The notes under the pieces: generated by a model
Told to the model about the DNA's origin: nothing
Database searches by the model: none
Seen by the model: the letters and a program-made list of their open reading frames with translations, nothing else
Made by a program: the position numbers and the translations under genes
From: Bacteroidales bacterium
Lineage (GTDB): Bacteria; Bacteroidota; Bacteroidia; Bacteroidales; P3
Assembly (NCBI GenBank): GCA_017530105.1
Contig: JAFXMW010000038.1
Span: 1 to 35,240 of the forward strand
Direction of reading: 5' to 3'
DNA length: 35,240 nucleotides
Shown here: piece by piece, positions 8,931 through 34,023 of the stretch
How the letters are laid out: the number at the start of each line of letters is the position of its first letter
Position numbering within the stretch: the stretch's first letter is position 1

Positions 8931-10145
8931 ATGAATAATATTATCGACACAATCAAGCAACTTGCCCACCAGTATCATGAAGAGGCTGTGGGTTGGCGGC
9001 GTTGGATGCACCGCCACCCTGATTTGAGCCAGCAGGAGTTCGGCACCATGGCATTTGTGGCCGAGCGCCTGACGGAAATGGGGCTGGAACCCAAGACAGG
9101 CATTGGCAAGACGGGCGTGATGGCCATGATTCGTGGCGGCAAAGACCCCGATGCCTATTGTGTGGGGCTGCGCGCCGACTATGATGCTTTGCCCCTCACC
9201 GAATGTACTGGTTTGCCCTTTGCCTCGGAGAACCCCGGCGTGATGCACGCCTGCGGCCACGATATGCACACCAGCTCGCTGCTTTGTGCCGCCAAAATTC
9301 TTTGCAGCATAAAGGAAGAACTGGAGGGAAGCATCATGCTTATCTTCGAGCCTTCGGAGGAGATGTATCCCGGCGGTGCCCGCATGATGATGGACGACGG
9401 GCTCTTCGATGAGGTGATGCCCAATGAAATTTATTCATTCCACTGCCTGCCTGAGATGGACTTCGGCCGCATCGGCATGAAAAAAGGCCGCTACATGGCC
9501 TCAACCGACGAGTTGTATTGGACCGTGAAAGGCAAAGGAGGCCACGGAGCCACACCCCACATGAGTGTCGACCCCATCCTTATTGCTTCGCACATCGTGG
9601 TGGCCTTGCAGCAAATAGTGAGCCGCAACGCAGCACCCATGATGCCCACAGTGTTGAGTTTCGGCAAGTTCATTGGCGAAGGTCGCACCAACATCATTCC
9701 CGACGAGGTGAAGATGGAGGGCATTATCCGCACCTTCGACCCCCAATGGCGGCTCGACTGCCACGAGAAGATACGCAAAATCAGTTGCGGCATAGCCGAG
9801 AGCATGGGAGGAGAATGTGACCTGTTTATTGACTACGGCTACCCTCCCGTCATCAACGACGACGAATGTACCCAACAGGTACACGACAACGGAGTGACTT
9901 TTCTGGGACAAGAGAATGTGGACTGGCTTGACCTGCGCATGACAGCAGAGGACTTTGCCTTCTTTGCACAGAAGATACCTGCCTGCTACTTCCGCGTAGG
10001 CATCCACATCCCCGGCACCCCCTACAGCAATCTGCACCGCCCCGACCTCATGGTCGACGAACGGTCTATCGAACTGGCTGGCGGCTTTGTGGCTTATAAC
10101 GCCTTCACAGCCCTTAAAAACAAGATAAAACAAATCCCCTCATGA
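8931..10145 (+). CDS. M20 family amidohydrolase / metallopeptidase (M20D-like)
   Basis: This is a cytosolic zinc-type amidohydrolase of the hippurate hydrolase/N-acyl-amino-acid deacylase group, expected to cleave N-acyl or peptide amide bonds. The exact substrate cannot be read from sequence. Metal-site and catalytic motifs are present: HACGHDMH (106-113, with C108 and H110), EPSEE (140-144, general base E143, ligand E144), SFHCLP, and a late His in NLHRPD. The dimerisation domain sits in the middle (GGHGATPH region). The start chosen is the ATG at 8931, giving 404 residues and lying 19 nt after ileS; an upstream in-frame ATG at 8889 would overlap ileS and add an unconserved-looking tail. 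The stop overlaps the next gene by 4 nt (ATGA), so the two are translationally coupled. Confidence 0.9.
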   Translation: MNNIIDTIKQLAHQYHEEAVGWRRWMHRHPDLSQQEFGTMAFVAERLTEMGLEPKTGIGKTGVMAMIRGGKDPDAYCVGLRADYDALPLTECTGLPFASENPGVMHACGHDMHTSSLLCAAKILCSIKEELEGSIMLIFEPSEEMYPGGARMMMDDGLFDEVMPNEIYSFHCLPEMDFGRIGMKKGRYMASTDELYWTVKGKGGHGATPHMSVDPILIASHIVVALQQIVSRNAAPMMPTVLSFGKFIGEGRTNIIPDEVKMEGIIRTFDPQWRLDCHEKIRKISCGIAESMGGECDLFIDYGYPPVINDDECTQQVHDNGVTFLGQENVDWLDLRMTAEDFAFFAQKIPACYFRVGIHIPGTPYSNLHRPDLMVDERSIELAGGFVAYNAFTALKNKIKQIPS

Positions 10146-25833: not shown

Positions 25834-25905
<72 letters not shown>

Positions 25906-25919
25906 CAAAAACAGACAGG

Positions 25920-25947
25920 CAGGTTGCGGTAAGCAACCTGTTTTTTT
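25920..25947 (+). terminator. Rho-independent terminator after tRNA-fMet
   Basis: CAGGTTGC (25920-25927) pairs with GCAACCTG (25933-25940), followed by seven T. From here to 26085 there is no recognisable feature apart from a run of eight C at 26067-26074. Confidence 0.92.
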
Positions 25948-26085
25948 ATTCATGCTGTCCGCTGTGAGCATGTCCACATAAGGGCAGCAGAAATAAATAG
26001 CAACCCCGCATGTGGGCTATATTTTGAGCCAAGCCTACCACTGAATCGAGACCGAATGGGAGCAATCCCCCCCCTGCCACCTAAG

Positions 26086-26112
26086 AAAAACGGGCATCTT
26101 ACATGATGCTCT
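26086..26112 (-). terminator. Terminator of the ATPase operon
   Basis: On the minus strand, a GCATC/GATGC stem (26094-26098/26105-26109 on the + strand) is followed by CC, G and a five-base T-run (26086-26090). It lies just beyond the stop codon of the downstream gene of the pair. Confidence 0.55.
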
Positions 26113-26121
26113 GTTTTGTAT

Positions 26122-26652
26122 TTATTTTATTAAAGCTATGATATCGTCGGTGGAAGTATCATAACGTGACTGAAGAAGATAGCACAATACGTTCTTTAAT
26201 ATCTCTATTTCATCATGCCCCAGAATGGTAGCTAAAAGTTGTTTGACTCGTCTGTCGGTGAGAATATTCTCATTCTTAGTTAATTTGGTAAACTCCTTTA
26301 ACGTAGTTGGCAAACCGAAGTCATTGAGTGAATGCCCAATTTCATTCGTACAATCCATAATGAACCTGTCCATTGCTGGATTAACAGTAATGATATGATG
26401 CTTACCGTGGAGATGGGAGTAAAACTTCAAGTGCTTCGTTTGCCCTATGAGTTGAAACTCTCGCAAGTATGACACTCCATCTTTGTCATCGTCGATAATG
26501 CCGACAGCAAAGTCATCTCTATACTTTGCACGCATGACCTTGACAACATTATTGCAACTATGCTGATGGTTAACCCGATTGCCTAAAAGGAATTGGGTTA
26601 GCATTGTATCAATAAAACATTCAGGAATGATATATCCGTAATAATTGCTCAT
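26122..26652 (-). CDS. Putative TOPRIM-like partner of the adjacent ATPase
   Basis: This 176-residue protein has no family I can name with certainty. It shows a TOPRIM-like acidic pattern: a hydrophobic strand ending in Glu (YGYIIPE, E11) and, after a helix, a hydrophobic strand ending in an Asp cluster (FAVGIIDDDKDG, D54/D56/D58). The spacing is plausible for the E...DxD metal site of OLD-type nucleases and primases. Then come a His-rich stretch (FYSHLHGKHHIITVNPAMDRFI) and a helical C-terminal half. No signal peptide or membrane segment is present. Its start overlaps the ATPase stop by 4 nt (ATGA on the minus strand), so it is translationally coupled and probably works in a complex. It may be the effector nuclease of a two-gene defence module. 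Composition is clearly more AT-rich than the flanking DNA. Confidence 0.65.
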   Translation of the reverse strand: MSNYYGYIIPECFIDTMLTQFLLGNRVNHQHSCNNVVKVMRAKYRDDFAVGIIDDDKDGVSYLREFQLIGQTKHLKFYSHLHGKHHIITVNPAMDRFIMDCTNEIGHSLNDFGLPTTLKEFTKLTKNENILTDRRVKQLLATILGHDEIEILKNVLCYLLQSRYDTSTDDIIALIK

Positions 26653-27842
26653 ACAAATGCAGCACTATTAAAGAACAGGTCTGTGCCAGAAGTATAAATC
26701 TCATTCACCTCCTCTTCTGTGAGTTTTTTTAGGGAATAGCGGGTTGAGTTATCCTTATCACGATAAGTGAAATACATGTTCATTCCCTTACGATACTGCT
26801 TGCACATTTCATTAAGGATATATGGGCTATGCGTGGAGACTAAAAGAGTGTTTTCTCGTTTGGAGTCGAACACTTTCTCACAAAGCCAGTCTACCAGTTG
26901 ACTTTGAGTGGGAGGATACAGGTTTTGTTCAGGTTCTTCGAGGAATAATTCGCTGTGGTCAGTGTAAAGAAATCGAGTATATCTGTTTTTGAAAATAGTA
27001 GACTCCCTTTCGTTAAAAAAAGTATATGTTTTACCCTCTAATACCAGTTCTACATCTTGTTTCTCTTTATCTACATTACCCTGATGAAAATACAAATGAA
27101 TTGGTTTTGGAATAATCTTTTTGTATATTGCATTAATCAAGAAATCTCTTTCAGCTCTTTGTTCTAGTGTTAGTTCCTTCTTTTGAGCCTGTTTGTTGTC
27201 TTGTACTGAATGAAGACAATCAATTAGCAAATATAAAGGGACCAACGACTGAAGACCGCTGGAACTATCTGACAATGGCAGTGGGTTGCCATCTGCTGTA
27301 ATAATGTTGTCAGTATCGCTGGTGATGTCATAAGAATATGATATACCTAATTGGAGAATATTGTCCTCTACAGGTATGATTTGTCGGGCAGAGTCCCATT
27401 CGGAAAGGAATTCAAGTAATCCGTCTCGCACAGGTATTTTCTTCCATTTGGGAATAAAAGAAGCGATGTTGCGTTCGGATGGAATATATTGTATTTTTGG
27501 ACGTCGAAAATTCCAAATATTTGGTTTCTTATAAAAAGAAAAAACATGGTGTTTGTAAGAGAACGAAAGGTAGGGAGATGAATATTCCACAAAAGTGTCT
27601 CTATTGAAATATCCATTCAGTCCATAATACGAAACAAAGAAATCTCGGAAAGCATCAGGCTCTTGAAACATCTTATCAGATTGTGCCAATTGTATTCGTT
27701 TCTCCACCCAAGAGCAATAACACGCCATCTTCAGAAGAGAACTCTTACCTGAACTCTGCATACCAATGATTACAGCAATACGGTCGAGGTCTAATTCAGC
27801 CTCACTAATAGGTCCGAAATTCTTGATTTTTAATTGTTTCAT
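26649..27842 (-). CDS. OLD/AAA15-like ABC-fold ATPase
   Basis: The 397-residue protein has every motif of an SMC/RecF-like ABC ATPase. MKQLKIKNFGPISEAELDL is the typical first strands. Walker A is GMQSSGKSS (27-35, K33). The signature-like segment is DSSSGLQS (192-199). Walker B is LFLEEPE (299-305, catalytic E302/E303). The His switch is STHSPYIL with H338. The insertion between Walker A and the signature (about 155 residues, aromatic and basic) is too short for a full Rad50 coiled coil, as in OLD, PtuA and AriA ATPases. No nuclease domain is fused; that role may fall to the coupled downstream protein. It has its own promoter, AT-rich composition and opposite orientation to its neighbours, which suggests horizontal acquisition. 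Confidence 0.88.
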   Translation of the reverse strand: MKQLKIKNFGPISEAELDLDRIAVIIGMQSSGKSSLLKMACYCSWVEKRIQLAQSDKMFQEPDAFRDFFVSYYGLNGYFNRDTFVEYSSPYLSFSYKHHVFSFYKKPNIWNFRRPKIQYIPSERNIASFIPKWKKIPVRDGLLEFLSEWDSARQIIPVEDNILQLGISYSYDITSDTDNIITADGNPLPLSDSSSGLQSLVPLYLLIDCLHSVQDNKQAQKKELTLEQRAERDFLINAIYKKIIPKPIHLYFHQGNVDKEKQDVELVLEGKTYTFFNERESTIFKNRYTRFLYTDHSELFLEEPEQNLYPPTQSQLVDWLCEKVFDSKRENTLLVSTHSPYILNEMCKQYRKGMNMYFTYRDKDNSTRYSLKKLTEEEVNEIYTSGTDLFFNSAAFV

Positions 27843-27881
27843 TTCAAAATAATGTCAGCAGCGATACGGGATATTTTATTG

Positions 27882-27912
27882 CAAAGATACAAAGATTATT
27901 TCATACAATAAA
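27882..27912 (-). promoter_or_regulatory. Promoter of the ATPase operon
   Basis: On the minus strand the -7 element TATCTTTG lies at 27889-27882, with TTTA at 27912-27909 spaced 19 nt upstream as a near-consensus -33. The predicted transcript starts near 27876, about 34 nt before the ATPase ATG. Confidence 0.75.
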
Positions 27913-27939
27913 GAAAAATGCTTCCCCAAATTCTAAGAA

Positions 27940-28170
27940 TCATACTTTGGCTATTATTTTTTTGTTTGGTGGAAGAATAAATTTTGAGGGGTCGGGAATG
28001 AGGTGGCGCATGTTCCGCAACTTCTCCAAATCCTCAAGGAATTGGTGCGAAAAAATGACTTCTGGGGCTACCAAGACGGACAACCTTTCGGGGTTGTCTT
28101 TTTTTTCTTTTTTACGACGGCTTTTCAAAGCGGCTTTCAACACGCTGCAAATCAACCTTTCGTCCGTCAT
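27940..28170 (-). CDS. Doubtful small ORF upstream of the ATPase operon
   Basis: A 76-residue reading frame opens with ATG at 28170 and ends 97 nt before the ATPase gene, outside its promoter. The product is charged and helix-prone (LKAALKSRRKKEKK, then FLEDLEKLRNMRHL) with a basic C-terminus and no recognised domain. In favour: same strand as the pair, and a reasonable amino-acid mix. Against: no promoter is seen, the opposite strand is also open here, and a terminator-like hairpin lies inside it. It could be a small regulator, a remnant, or not a gene. Confidence 0.3.
   Translation of the reverse strand: MTDERLICSVLKAALKSRRKKEKKDNPERLSVLVAPEVIFSHQFLEDLEKLRNMRHLIPDPSKFILPPNKKIIAKV
28079..28106 (+). 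terminator. Terminator-like hairpin with T8 tract, orphan
   Basis: GACAACC (28079-28085) pairs with GGTTGTC (28092-28098) and is followed by eight T. It has the form of a + strand Rho-independent terminator, yet no + strand gene ends just upstream. It may end a small RNA or be a relic of a lost gene. Confidence 0.6.
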
Positions 28171-28377
28171 ATATATATCACATATATATCCGATATATAT
28201 TCAATGCATAGATAAGTGATAGACAACAACCGCATTTCCAGCACATAAGCCATACACTTATTGTTGACCTCGAACTACGGGTCACCAAGATGTCATCAAT
28301 GGGCTGGCGGCATTATCGTATTTCATAAAAAATTATTGTTTACCGATAAATATTTATAAGAATTCAAGAAAAATTTG
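28171..28377. other. AT-rich intergenic DNA before the efflux operon
   Basis: Repeated ATATATAT stretches lie at 28171-28200, and the rest is unstructured. No gene, tRNA fragment or insertion-sequence end is visible. It marks the right edge of the AT-rich island. Confidence 0.5.
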
Positions 28378-28385
28378 TATCTTTG
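28378..28385 (+). promoter_or_regulatory. Efflux operon promoter, -7 element
   Basis: TATCTTTG matches TAnnTTTG. The transcript would start near 28391, leaving a leader of about 85 nt before the adaptor gene. No metal-responsive operator is recognised. Confidence 0.7.
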
Positions 28386-28475
28386 CACGTTCATTCGCGG
28401 GTACGTCCGGATGCCAACATGGATATAATAATTTGATATATAACAAATATGATAGTCAAGCTTACTTTCGAAAGA

Positions 28476-29646: not shown

Positions 29647-32600
29647 ATGATAGAGAAACTTGTAGGCTGGGCCATAGACCATAAGGCAGTAACAGCGGCT
29701 GTTTTCGGGCTGCTTTGCATTGCCGGTATCATTTCGTGGAACGCATTGTCGATTGACGCCTATCCCGACATATCGGACACCACGGTGCAGGTGGTGACCC
29801 AAGTACCCGGACTGGCCACCGAGGAGATCGAGCAACAGATTTCCATCCCTGTGGAACGTGCAGTGAGCGGCATCCCCAATTTGGTCACCATGCGTAGCAA
29901 GAACAGTTTCGGACTGTCGACGGTGATTCTGGTTTTCGACGACGGTGTGGACGACTACTGGGCGCGTCAACGCGTCACCGAGCGGCTGACCGGCATCGAG
30001 TTGCCCTATGGGGCTGTGCCCGAACTCAATCCCCTCACCGCTCCCACGGGCGAGATATTCCGCTACATAGTGGAAAGTCCCGACGGCAGCCACGACTTGC
30101 GCAGCCTCACCGATATTCACAAGTGGACTATCATCCCCTATCTTAGGCAGATATCGGGTGTGGCGGATGTGAGCAACTATGGCGGTATCACCACGCAATA
30201 CCAGATTGAGTTGCTGCCCGACCGACTGACCGAATACGGCATTTCGCTGGCCGACATCACCGAGAAGATTGAGCAGAATAACCTCAATGCCGGGGGCAGC
30301 ATCCTGTCGGAGGGAAGTCTAAGCTATGTGGTGCGCGGCATTGGGTTGATCAGTGACCTGGAAGGTTTGGGCGACATTGTGGTGAAGACCGTCAATGGCA
30401 CGCCTGTATACCTGAAAGAGTTGGGCAATCTACAGTATGGCACTTTGGAGCGTAAAGGCGTATTAGGGTTCCGGGACGACGAACACAATTACGACGATGC
30501 CGTGGAGGGTATTGTACAGATGCTCCGCGGCGAGAACCCGTCGGAAGTGCTGGAACGAGTCCACACCTCTATCGATGAACTGAATAACGAAATCCTGCCC
30601 AAAGGTGTAAAGATACATCCATTCCTGGACCGCACCAGTCTGGTGGGCGAAACGCTCAAGACCGTCTCCCACACCCTGCTGATTGGCATGTTGCTGGTGA
30701 TTGTGGTGTTGATGATATTCTTGGGCAACTTCCGAGGGTCGCTGGTGGTGGCCATCACCATACCCATTGCGTTGCTGGTGGCCTTTGTGTTCATGAAACT
30801 TACCGGCATCCCGGCAAATCTGCTTTCGTTGGGAGCCGTTGACTTCGGCATACTGGTAGACGGTGCCATTGTGATGATGGAAAACATCTTGAAGAAACGC
30901 GAGAGGCATCCCGACCAAGAGCTAACCGCAGGCGATGCCAAGCAGCGAGCCAGCGAGGTGGCCCGTTCCATTTTCTTCTCCACCATCATCATTATCACAG
31001 CCTATTTGCCCCTATTTGCTTTCGAGCATGTGGAACGCAAACTGTTCACACCCATGGCCTACACCGTGGGTTACGCCCTGATAGGTGCCTTGCTCACCTC
31101 TCTGCTGCTTACCCCTGCCCTCTCCTATCTGGCTTACCGTAAGCCCCGCAAACTCTACCACAACAAATGGCTGGAAAAAATCAACAACGCCTACAACCAT
31201 CATATCGGTGTGCTGATTGAAAAGTCGCGGGCAGTGATAGTTGTGCTGCTGCTCATTTTGGGTGGTTCCATCGTTCTGTCCATCACCGTAGGCAAAGATT
31301 TCCTCCCACCACTTGACGAGGGCTCGGTATGGGTGCAGGTGCAACTGCCTCCGGGACTTTCCATCGAGAAGTCGAAGAAGATGGCCGACGATTTGAGAGA
31401 TGTGCTGAAGGAATTTGACGAAACCTCATACGTTATGACCCAGTTGGGACGCGACGACGAAGGGGCAGAGTGTTTTTCGCTGTCGCACATCGAAGCAGGT
31501 GTGGGACTGAAACCATACAACACATGGAAAAGCGGGCGTAACAAAGCCGAGTTGGTAGAGGCCATGTCAAAGGCCATAGAAAAGATGCCCGGCTATTCGG
31601 CAGGCTTCTCGCAGCCCATTATCGACATGGTGATGGACCAGATAGCCGGCACCCACAGCGACCTGGCTCTGAAAATCTATTCCGACGACATAGACGAAAG
31701 CCGCCGTGTGGCCGAAGAAGTGGCGAATGTGGTGGCGCAAATCGAGGGAGCCTCCGATGTGGCTGTGGACCAAGAGCCTCCCACCCCCCAGTTGCAAATC
31801 TCAGTAAATCGCACCAGCATCGCCCAATACGGTTTGAATGTATCGGACGTTACGGAATTGATTGAACTGGCCATAGGCGGCCGCGCCATTTCGCAGATTT
31901 ATGTGGGCAGCAAGGTGTACGACATCACCTGCCGCTATGCCGAGCAATACCGCAACACACCTGAGAAAATCGGGAACCTGATGCTCACCACCGCCGACGG
32001 GGTGAAAGTGCCCCTCTCAGCTGTGGCCGACATCAAAATGTCGCTCGGAGCCAGCACTATCATGCGCGAAATGAGCCGACGCTACACTCTGGTGCGCATC
32101 AACCTGCGCGGAGCCGACCTAACCACCTTTGTGGAGAAAGCAGACAAACTCATCTCTCAGCAAGTGCAGTACGACCACGAAAAGACCTCGTTGCACTGGG
32201 CAGGACAGTTCGAAAACCGCAACCGCGCTTTCAACCGTCTGGGTTTGGTCGTACCCCTGGCCCTTATGGTGATGTTCATCCTGCTCATCTTCGCCTTCGG
32301 CAAAGTGCGTCAGGCCGGACTGCTGATGTCTGTCGTCCCCCTGGCCCTGTTCGGCGGCATGTTGGCACTAAACGTACGCGGCATGACCCTCAACGTGTCG
32401 TCGGCCGTGGGTTTCATTGCCCTTATCGGTGTGGCTATTCAAAACGGAATCATTATGATATCTCACATCAATCACTTGCGGCTAAGAGGCTACGAACTGA
32501 AACGTGCCGTAATCGAAGGTGCCTCTCACCGTATGAGGCCCGTGCTGCTGACCGCCTCGGTGGCAGTGCTGGGACTTTTCCCAGCATCCATCTCAACAGG

Positions 32601-34023
32601 AATCGGGAGCGACGTGCAACGTCCTCTGGCAACAGTTATTGTCTACGGACTTATTTTCGCAACAATAGTAACCCTGTTCATTCTCCCAACCCTTTATTAT
32701 ATGATGGAAAAGCGAGTGGCCGAAAAAGCAGCCCTTCAGGTCTCCGAGCCTTCCGACAAGCCTAAAGGTCATTCGGCTCTGAAAATAATCATCCCCTTGA
32801 TAGCCATGCTTCCCTTCGCCGCTAACGGTCAGAACCTGGACTACACCACATTCATCAACCGGGTAATGGCGAGCAACCTCGACTATGCGGCGGCAAAACT
32901 CGACCTCTCCATATCGCAGGCCGACCTGACGGCTGCCAAGAAATTCACCGACCCCACCATCACCGCCGAGTATGGGAACAACAGCGACTGGGACATTGCC
33001 ATGGGGCAATCGCTTTCTTTCGGTCTGGAGAAAAGCATATCCTTTGGCAAACGGGCTGCACGCATCCGGGTGGCACGCAACCTGCTCGATGCGTCAGACG
33101 CCGGCCTGCAGTATTTCTCCAACACCCTGCGCGCCGAAGCCACACTGGCCTATATCAACGCCCTCCTGGCACGCGACCTTGCCCGCATCGGGCAGCAGAA
33201 CGCCCGCAACATGGCCTCCCTTTATCACAGCGACAGCCTGCGCCACGCCACGGGAGAGTTGTCCGAAATTGATGTCATGCAGACGCGACTTGAGTCCAAC
33301 ATTGCATGGCAAGAATACCGCCAATTGCAGGCTGACTACCGCAATGCGTTGGTGGAACTTGACCAATTGATGGGCATCGCCTTGCAAAGCACCGACAGCA
33401 TTGTGGGCAACCTCGGTGTGCCGACACACCTCTACAGCCTTCAAAACCTCTTGCAGGGTTCCGACACCCTGCGCATGGACATTGTGCAACAGCAACACAT
33501 GGCACGGGCTGCCGAGAGCGAGCTTACCCAAGTGCGCCGTGAACGTATGCCCGACATCGACCTCTCGCTTGGTGTCAGCTACAACTCCCGTGTTCGCAAC
33601 GAAGAGGCTCCTGCCCCTGAATTTGTGGGCTACACCGTCGGGGTGGGTATTCCCCTTCCCGTCTCCAACCTCAACCGAGGCGAAATCCGTTCCGGACAAT
33701 ACAAAGTCCGTCAAGCCCAAATACAGACCGACATAGCCCGGCGCACGGCACATTCCGAGATTATCAAAGCCTACAACAACTACCTGTCAGCCCTCAACCG
33801 CCTATCGGACTACAACACCTTTATCATGGACAATGCACAGCAGGTGCTGGACGGCAAACTCTACGCCTACCGTCGCGGCGAGACCTCACTGCTCGAGGTC
33901 ATCAACGCCCAGCATACCTACAACGAGTTGCAGCAATCCTATGCCGAATGTCTCCACGACTGCCTTTCCGCTCTGGTGGAACTGGAAAGTGCCTCCGGCA
34001 TCTGGGACATCACCTTAGAATAA
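29647..34023 (+). CDS. CusA/CzcA-type heavy-metal RND pump fused to a TolC-like outer-membrane domain
   Basis: Residues 1 to about 1030 are a complete heavy-metal-type (HME) RND transporter that expels metal cations using the proton gradient. Its opening is typical (HKAVTAAVFGLLCIAGI) and TM4 carries the HME signature DFGILVDGAIVMMEN with D399, D405 and E412, the charged residues used for proton relay in CzcA. After the last pump helix and MMEKRVAEK (from M1019), a hydrophobic signal-like stretch (about 1044-1062, LKIIIPLIAMLPFAANGQ) leads into a TolC-like outer-membrane factor domain of about 395 residues. That domain has two homologous helical halves (SISQADLTAAKKF; ARAAESELTQVRRERMPDIDLSLG). 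Length is about 400 residues beyond a normal CusA (about 1040). No stop or frameshift separates the parts. Which metal is exported cannot be read from this sequence. Confidence 0.92.
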   Translation: MIEKLVGWAIDHKAVTAAVFGLLCIAGIISWNALSIDAYPDISDTTVQVVTQVPGLATEEIEQQISIPVERAVSGIPNLVTMRSKNSFGLSTVILVFDDGVDDYWARQRVTERLTGIELPYGAVPELNPLTAPTGEIFRYIVESPDGSHDLRSLTDIHKWTIIPYLRQISGVADVSNYGGITTQYQIELLPDRLTEYGISLADITEKIEQNNLNAGGSILSEGSLSYVVRGIGLISDLEGLGDIVVKTVNGTPVYLKELGNLQYGTLERKGVLGFRDDEHNYDDAVEGIVQMLRGENPSEVLERVHTSIDELNNEILPKGVKIHPFLDRTSLVGETLKTVSHTLLIGMLLVIVVLMIFLGNFRGSLVVAITIPIALLVAFVFMKLTGIPANLLSLGAVDFGILVDGAIVMMENILKKRERHPDQELTAGDAKQRASEVARSIFFSTIIIITAYLPLFAFEHVERKLFTPMAYTVGYALIGALLTSLLLTPALSYLAYRKPRKLYHNKWLEKINNAYNHHIGVLIEKSRAVIVVLLLILGGSIVLSITVGKDFLPPLDEGSVWVQVQLPPGLSIEKSKKMADDLRDVLKEFDETSYVMTQLGRDDEGAECFSLSHIEAGVGLKPYNTWKSGRNKAELVEAMSKAIEKMPGYSAGFSQPIIDMVMDQIAGTHSDLALKIYSDDIDESRRVAEEVANVVAQIEGASDVAVDQEPPTPQLQISVNRTSIAQYGLNVSDVTELIELAIGGRAISQIYVGSKVYDITCRYAEQYRNTPEKIGNLMLTTADGVKVPLSAVADIKMSLGASTIMREMSRRYTLVRINLRGADLTTFVEKADKLISQQVQYDHEKTSLHWAGQFENRNRAFNRLGLVVPLALMVMFILLIFAFGKVRQAGLLMSVVPLALFGGMLALNVRGMTLNVSSAVGFIALIGVAIQNGIIMISHINHLRLRGYELKRAVIEGASHRMRPVLLTASVAVLGLFPASISTGIGSDVQRPLATVIVYGLIFATIVTLFILPTLYYMMEKRVAEKAALQVSEPSDKPKGHSALKIIIPLIAMLPFAANGQNLDYTTFINRVMASNLDYAAAKLDLSISQADLTAAKKFTDPTITAEYGNNSDWDIAMGQSLSFGLEKSISFGKRAARIRVARNLLDASDAGLQYFSNTLRAEATLAYINALLARDLARIGQQNARNMASLYHSDSLRHATGELSEIDVMQTRLESNIAWQEYRQLQADYRNALVELDQLMGIALQSTDSIVGNLGVPTHLYSLQNLLQGSDTLRMDIVQQQHMARAAESELTQVRRERMPDIDLSLGVSYNSRVRNEEAPAPEFVGYTVGVGIPLPVSNLNRGEIRSGQYKVRQAQIQTDIARRTAHSEIIKAYNNYLSALNRLSDYNTFIMDNAQQVLDGKLYAYRRGETSLLEVINAQHTYNELQQSYAECLHDCLSALVELESASGIWDITLE

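Follow-up and report, generated by a model that had tools for sequence, protein, structure and literature searches.

A two-gene ATPase and TOPRIM-like cassette at a tRNA-Met insertion hotspot in Bacteroidales: a candidate mobile sensor-effector switch

Introduction

What role might be played by a compact, AT-rich pair of overlapping genes, one for an ABC/OLD-type ATPase and one for a small TOPRIM-like protein, inserted beside a tRNA gene in a member of the Bacteroidales? We address this question for a 35,240-nucleotide stretch of DNA (GenBank assembly GCA_017530105.1, contig JAFXMW010000038.1, positions 1 to 35,240), referred to as a whole as the window. A first-pass annotation, made from the sequence alone, had proposed the pair as a candidate undescribed defence module. 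Both open reading frames (ORFs) were found where that annotation had placed them: the ATPase gene (26649..27842, minus strand; 397 amino acids [aa], AAA_15 family, FGP-type), presumed to encode a sensor and holder, and the partner gene (26122..26652, minus strand; 176 aa), presumed to encode a nuclease effector, with ATGA as their 4-nucleotide (nt) overlap. On balance, we favour reading the cassette as a mobile two-gene sensor-effector switch that is PARIS- or AbiL-like, a reading supported by the co-occurrence of the two genes, the TOPRIM signature of the partner, the ATPase fold, horizontal spread, and an ATPase tail linked to the partner.

Two-gene systems of an AAA ATPase and a TOPRIM protein are a published class (PARIS, AbiL, and NetFlax pairs), and the ATPase described here matches the PADLOC model PDC-M29A; to that extent the module is not undescribed. 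The partner family and its pairing have no model. Three elements appear to be new: this family, its combination with ATPases of two types, and the partner-linked tail. None of them was found in PADLOC 2.0, Pfam, NCBIfam, or the literature searched, Krishnan et al. (2020) on ABC ATPases apart.

Results and Discussion

Matches to the partner were found in 11 of 190 genomes of the window's family, 12 of 393 of its order, and 9 of 395 of its phylum (overlapping draws, each containing the window's own genome, in which the partner is single copy), giving 29 distinct matches in all. An ATPase gene stands directly upstream in 28 of the 29, and the two genes overlap in 24 of these 28, abut in 1, and are separated by 2 to 8 nt in 3, a phyletic pattern that supports the proposed coupling of ATPase and small partner. 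The 29th match (genome G668; L027, the same as L098, about 9409-9675) is partial, stop-interrupted, and without an ATPase, and lies beside an Abi_2 gene. Three partner queries run against phage records gave a single match, in the archaeal pleomorphic virus (pleolipovirus) GahPV1, which PMC10919331 reports as a provirus of Geoglobus ahangari. Here gp15, annotated "AAA family ATPase," is followed with a 1-nt overlap by gp16, a partner that is annotated as hypothetical and has the same motifs (L188, 4997-6438). Searching IMG/VR with the 11-partner alignment A1 gave no relative; a search with alignment A6 returned 13 loci, which were set aside since they encode OLD-like ATPases of 513 to 688 aa, different from the cassette. 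At L081 (12137-13342), a second ATPase of 401 aa lies close to the module with no evident small partner.

The ATPase exceeds the Pfam cut-offs for AAA_15 (3.4e-18; 66.9 bits, cut-off 32.1) and AAA_21 (44.5, cut-off 27) and matches PDC-M29A at 1.6e-57, a model matched by all 11 ATPases of alignment A2. With its AlphaFold2 model (pLDDT 89.1), the top Foldseek match was PtuA (E, 7e-11). The functional residues singled out at first pass are present and conserved: K33, E302, E303, and H338 are invariant across 30 ATPases (alignment A4), and S194, S195, G196, and Q198 of the signature are invariant across the 11 of A2. In two further ATPases, of the FKSI type discussed below, Asp replaces the first Glu of EEPE (A6).

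The E11...D54xD56 pattern reported for the partner is likewise real. E11, D15, D54, and D56 are invariant in 27 sequences (alignment A3, window included), and E-x3-D and D-x-D are the only invariants of that alignment, as would be expected of a catalytic metal site. The acidic motif of TOPRIM domains, a Glu after strand 1 and D-x-D after strand 3, is present both in A3 and in gp16 of GahPV1. Foldseek alone returned no significant match for the partner; the VIA list is headed by OLD TOPRIM domains, and the VIA Z for the partner and AriB is 4.8. A profile of the partner aligned to RloB and to DUF4435 with D-x-D in register, at probabilities of 32.6% and 30.9%, respectively, compared with 0.9% or less in 40 column shuffles each. 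Conservation and model together support a TOPRIM-like assignment.

Neither the partner nor the 11 partners of A1 matched DUF4435 (PF14491), and no match occurred in the window's genome; RloB (PF13707) matched neither the partner, A1, nor the window's genome, the profile-profile similarity being weak. No PADLOC model matched the 11 partners of A1 at an E of up to 1, and the partner has no HNH match in Pfam or PADLOC. Assignments of the partner to PIN_5 (Pfam, 0.037), DfrA51 (NCBIfam, 0.014), and RNA_lig_partner (0.017) were rejected as far under cut-off and nonrecurring. Three of five distant partners gave isolated weak PADLOC matches at an E of up to 1 (Cas9, 0.03; PDC-M02A, 0.0022; mREase_IV, 0.019), and the link to PDC-M02A was dropped, its two loci holding unrelated proteins and no adjoining ATPase.

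Like PDC-M29, the cassette has a PDC-M29A-matching ATPase and a two-gene layout with a short overlap, but its partner does not match PDC-M29B (PDLC04563 found in 4 of 16 genomes tested, with no match in the window's genome). In PDC-M29B and similar partners a C[DE]...ExK motif is seen, and the F-x-N tail described below is missing from the accompanying ATPases. The name PDC-M29 had no mention in the literature searched. PARIS (AriA, AAA_15/AAA_21; AriB, DUF4435) shares with the cassette the separate ATPase and TOPRIM genes, the AAA_15 match over cut-off, and the 42 partner columns that align to DUF4435; the cassette differs in having no DUF4435 match and a partner of 176 aa against 238 positions in the Pfam model. 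AbiL/RloA-RloB has the same architecture and a weak RloB profile match to the partner, and for FKSI-type ATPases the PADLOC AbiLi model gives matches reaching 6.7e-24; however, the partner matches no RloB model, and most ORFs linked to RloB end otherwise. From the PtuA-PtuB pair of Septu and retrons the cassette is set apart by a TOPRIM signature with no HNH match and, by eye, by the lack of a noticeable reverse-transcriptase-like gene among the flanking ORFs. These failed family matches (DUF4435, HNH, and a fused TOPRIM or helicase) support the earlier suggestion that the pair may be a type of its own, distinct from Septu, PARIS, and Gabija.

Class 1 OLD and Gabija GajA also combine an OLD-type ATPase with TOPRIM, and the cassette could be a DNA nuclease of this kind split in two, sensing unusual DNA and using its TOPRIM subunit to nick or degrade phage or plasmid DNA without host suicide. 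We regard this as rather unlikely. The cassette's TOPRIM is a separate 176-aa gene and is not fused, the adjoining genes are, by eye, DsbD- and CusB-like, and no GajB-like helicase was found in the flanking ORFs examined. In addition, the two genes are distinct and overlap, and the partner's profile resembles those of RloB and DUF4435; both points fit the AbiL/PARIS branch, in which AriB acts on tRNA (PMC12409363).

An ATPase alignment searched against 189 family genomes gave 53 matches within a threshold of 1e-30, spread over 41 genomes. Loci were examined for 30 of the 53, 11 with a TOPRIM partner and 19 without; the latter, with four loci found via PDC-M29B, make up 23 FGP-type ATPases that lack a TOPRIM partner. 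In 22 of the 23, the gene that follows is small and encodes C[DE]...ExK, a pattern written post hoc (L103-L106, L120-L125, L127, and L129-L139); the last locus (L128) is broken, with its partner not found. By eye, the C[DE]...ExK partners appear PD-(D/E)XK-like; two of them compared with Pfam matched no family. A tree of ATPase cores (52 sequences, trimmed of their tails) splits FKSI-type (17) from FGP-type (35) ATPases with support of 100/100; the distance between the two is about 3.3 changes per site (2.3 + 1.0 on either side of the midpoint root). Within FGP, the 23 non-TOPRIM ATPases form one side of a branch (91/97). Partners of FGP and FKSI ATPases are not cleanly separated in the partner tree, in which FGP-linked partners need 2 changes, but the test does not reject their grouping as a single clade (p-AU, 0.19), and of the 25 inner branches 14 stay open. 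Such distant ATPase types with unseparated partners suggest effector exchange between the two types.

A feature that tracks the partner is the C-terminal ATPase tail, residues 381-397 with the motif DLFFN (26652..26702, minus strand), the presumed docking site for the TOPRIM protein. An [IVLMA]F-x-N pattern, defined post hoc from sequences already inspected, occurs in the last 18 residues of 29 of 29 TOPRIM-partnered ATPases, FGP and FKSI types included, and in the last 30 residues of 0 of the 23 other FGP-type ATPases (Fisher, 2.8e-15, to be read loosely because the rows are related). The looser F-x-N separates the groups at 29/29 versus 3/23, and the stricter D-x-F-[FYALQ]-N does so at 25/29 versus 0/23. 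As background, 130 of 3484 30-residue windows taken from other parts of these ATPases contain [IVLMA]F-x-N, and among ORFs upstream of other TOPRIM-type partners, it was seen in 0 of 22 for RloB and 2 of 13 for DUF4435. Since the partner label changes only once on the tree within FGP, partner and clade are inseparable there, and the argument for the tail rests on its sharing by FGP and FKSI, that is, on its occurrence on both sides of the 100/100 split. Over the tail, AlphaFold2 confidence declines from about 93 to values of 72 and 63, as expected of a part that may fold on the partner, or of plain disorder. Separately, G-x-x-G[AG]-x-P forms the ending of 18 of the 22 ORFs that precede RloB genes (L140-L163), and it may serve these as a docking tail in its own right.

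We tentatively propose that the [IVLMA]F-x-N tail could be a transferable socket into which effectors plug, with diverged FGP and FKSI sensors using one TOPRIM family and tail-less FGP sisters using a PD-(D/E)XK-like effector, although we hold this with well under even confidence. If it were true, the tail of an ATPase would reveal the identity of its effector, and swapping tails would swap effectors. A rule of ATPase tails matching their partners is suggested, which would indicate how ABC-ATPase defence systems may swap nucleases.

In the PARIS- or AbiL-like switch that we favour, the ATPase would bind the small TOPRIM metal-dependent nuclease, probably through the conserved C-terminal tail, and hold it in an inactive state. 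The trigger, for which a phage component is the most likely candidate, would alter the ATPase, and the nuclease would be freed or activated to cut nucleic acid, RNA (tRNA or another kind) being a likelier target than the DNA of the phage; growth would then halt before phage maturation. Holding through the tail, trigger, substrate, and defence outcome are all inferred by analogy. The ATPase is read as sensor and holder, the tail as dock, and the partner as nuclease because in PARIS, AriA sequesters the Toprim tRNase AriB, which is released upon sensing of phage proteins (PMC12409363), and because TOPRIM_OLD toxins were neutralised by AAA ATPases in assays (PMC10440598). The latter source also reports AlphaFold modelling of AAA-TOPRIM pairs, in which no interface was convincing.

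Two observations slightly lower our confidence in the switch and in the socket proposal. The 17 FKSI-type ATPases were all found via a TOPRIM partner, so their uniform label arises by selection, and one relative of the partner, L029, left out of A3 on account of masked letters, has D-K-N instead of D-x-D. The lost second Asp of L029, together with the lack of a significant Foldseek match, would suit a partner with a TOPRIM-like fold and no nuclease activity, for example, a regulatory or nucleotide-binding subunit; we consider this improbable, as the acidic set is the sole invariant in 27 aligned members. At L029 (1498-2364), the partner frame crosses a masked stretch into sequence that is YraN-like by eye, representing a fusion or an artefact.

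A toxin-antitoxin style addiction module, serving chiefly self-maintenance instead of phage defence, would account for a compact overlapping pair in otherwise unrelated loci and for the related AAA ATPases that serve as antitoxins to TOPRIM toxins in assays (PMC10440598). Yet in the analogue studied best, removing the ATPase proved nontoxic and the authors excluded a toxin-antitoxin system (PMC9122126), and the three partner queries have no relative encoded in any plasmid record. We therefore view this alternative as unlikely, while noting that addiction and defence roles can overlap. Relatives of the ATPase occur in 3 plasmid records, and the one examined has a PD-(D/E)XK-like partner: a Bacteroides finegoldii plasmid (L189, 5139-6702) carries an FGP-type ATPase with this partner amid polysaccharide genes.

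Evidence for mobility comes from composition and from sister genomes. The insert lies between tRNA-Met(CAT) (25834..25906, plus strand; ARAGORN), which borders the hotspot and is close to the module as first described, and a CusB-like gene at 28449. The module is AT-richer than its surroundings, as had been claimed, with a GC fraction of 0.374 versus a mean of 0.538 in equal-size windows outside it (standard deviation, 0.028; z, -5.9). We compared 14 regions beside the DsbD-like gene, drawn from 113 genus genomes with a DsbD-like match. In 9 of the 14, besides G113, tRNA-Met lies between the DsbD-like and CusB-like genes; the remaining 4 end early or are without tRNA or CusB. Five of the nine sites are near-empty, with just 229 to 392 bp from the tRNA to the CusB match, and one has a gap of about 0.7 kb with no convincing ORF. 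Other cargo occupies the last three, in which 1.9 to 2.9 kb separate the tRNA from the CusB match and two of which hold defence-type families (AbiEii, 4.6e-15; REase-ARP, 4.7e-22) and the third a weak outer-membrane beta-barrel match. G113 carries the module at the same tRNA, with 76% ATPase identity and no CusB match in the region. Neighbours differ among the 27 loci examined, three of which lie, by eye, amid polysaccharide genes. Patchy occurrence, varying neighbours, and near-empty sister sites support horizontal spread of the cassette. A housekeeping pair for DNA repair or recombination (RecF/Rad50-like), with no defence role, might be suspected from an ATPase fold that is common to Rad50 and SMC heads, but it is very improbable given the absence of a match in 179 of 190 family genomes, the AT-rich composition, the differing neighbours, and the near-empty sites.

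The cassette adds a compact, presumed TOPRIM effector family for which PADLOC 2.0, Pfam, and NCBIfam gave nothing above cut-off; it ranges across the phylum of the window and occurs in an archaeal provirus as well.

Support for a classical defence-island setting was not obtained. The homologues do not sit at one core place, and the loci differ, so that only half of the pattern named in the first-pass annotation as refuting (a fixed core position with no link to defence islands) is avoided. Among 114 neighbour proteins (112 of 139 listed plus 2 added; two are themselves AAA ATPases) compared with PADLOC at 1e-10, no family among the 25 of 85 listed had more than 3 proteins, and as there was no control set, we claim no enrichment. 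Single defence-type neighbours include YhcG/DUF1016, Abi_2, and DUF3990 proteins, and most neighbours are, by eye, unrelated genes.

Several details of the hotspot are of additional interest. Across the window (25907-28448) and L064, L065, L069, and L073, the cargo varies (AbiEii, REase-ARP, beta-barrel, and cassette), and a stretch near window positions 28007-28081 is found again beside different cargo in L064 and L069. The REase cargo of L069 lies between two 51-nt repeats of 92% identity; one copy begins at the tRNA 3' end and spans the trailer, in an att-like manner. On the far side of the window's insert, local alignment points to a possible remnant of the tRNA-Met 3' end (GCTACCA) and trailer terminator (28067..28105, plus strand). 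Compared with near-empty sites, this segment scored 43 for L070 (best of 300 shuffles, 23), 32 for L072 (25), and 33 for L067, barely over its best shuffle (32); for L066 and L062 it was not above 300 shuffles.

The cassette had also been credited with its own promoter and terminator, and the signals found are weaker than claimed. A TATCTTTG box upstream of the ATPase gene (27882..27889, minus strand), read from the sequence, resembles the Bacteroides -7 element, and a terminator-like stem of 5 pairs lies 3' of the partner gene (26094..26109, minus strand; consensus scan only). A sigma-70 scan found 5 sites versus a mean of 8.6 in shuffles, fewer than chance. The reported opposite orientation to all neighbours holds for the immediate ones, the DsbD-like gene, a 138-aa ORF, the tRNA, and the CusB/CusA-like genes all being on the plus strand. 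The window also contains a 1458-aa ORF (29647-34023) that, by eye, resembles a fusion of a CusA-type RND pump with a TolC-like outer-membrane protein.
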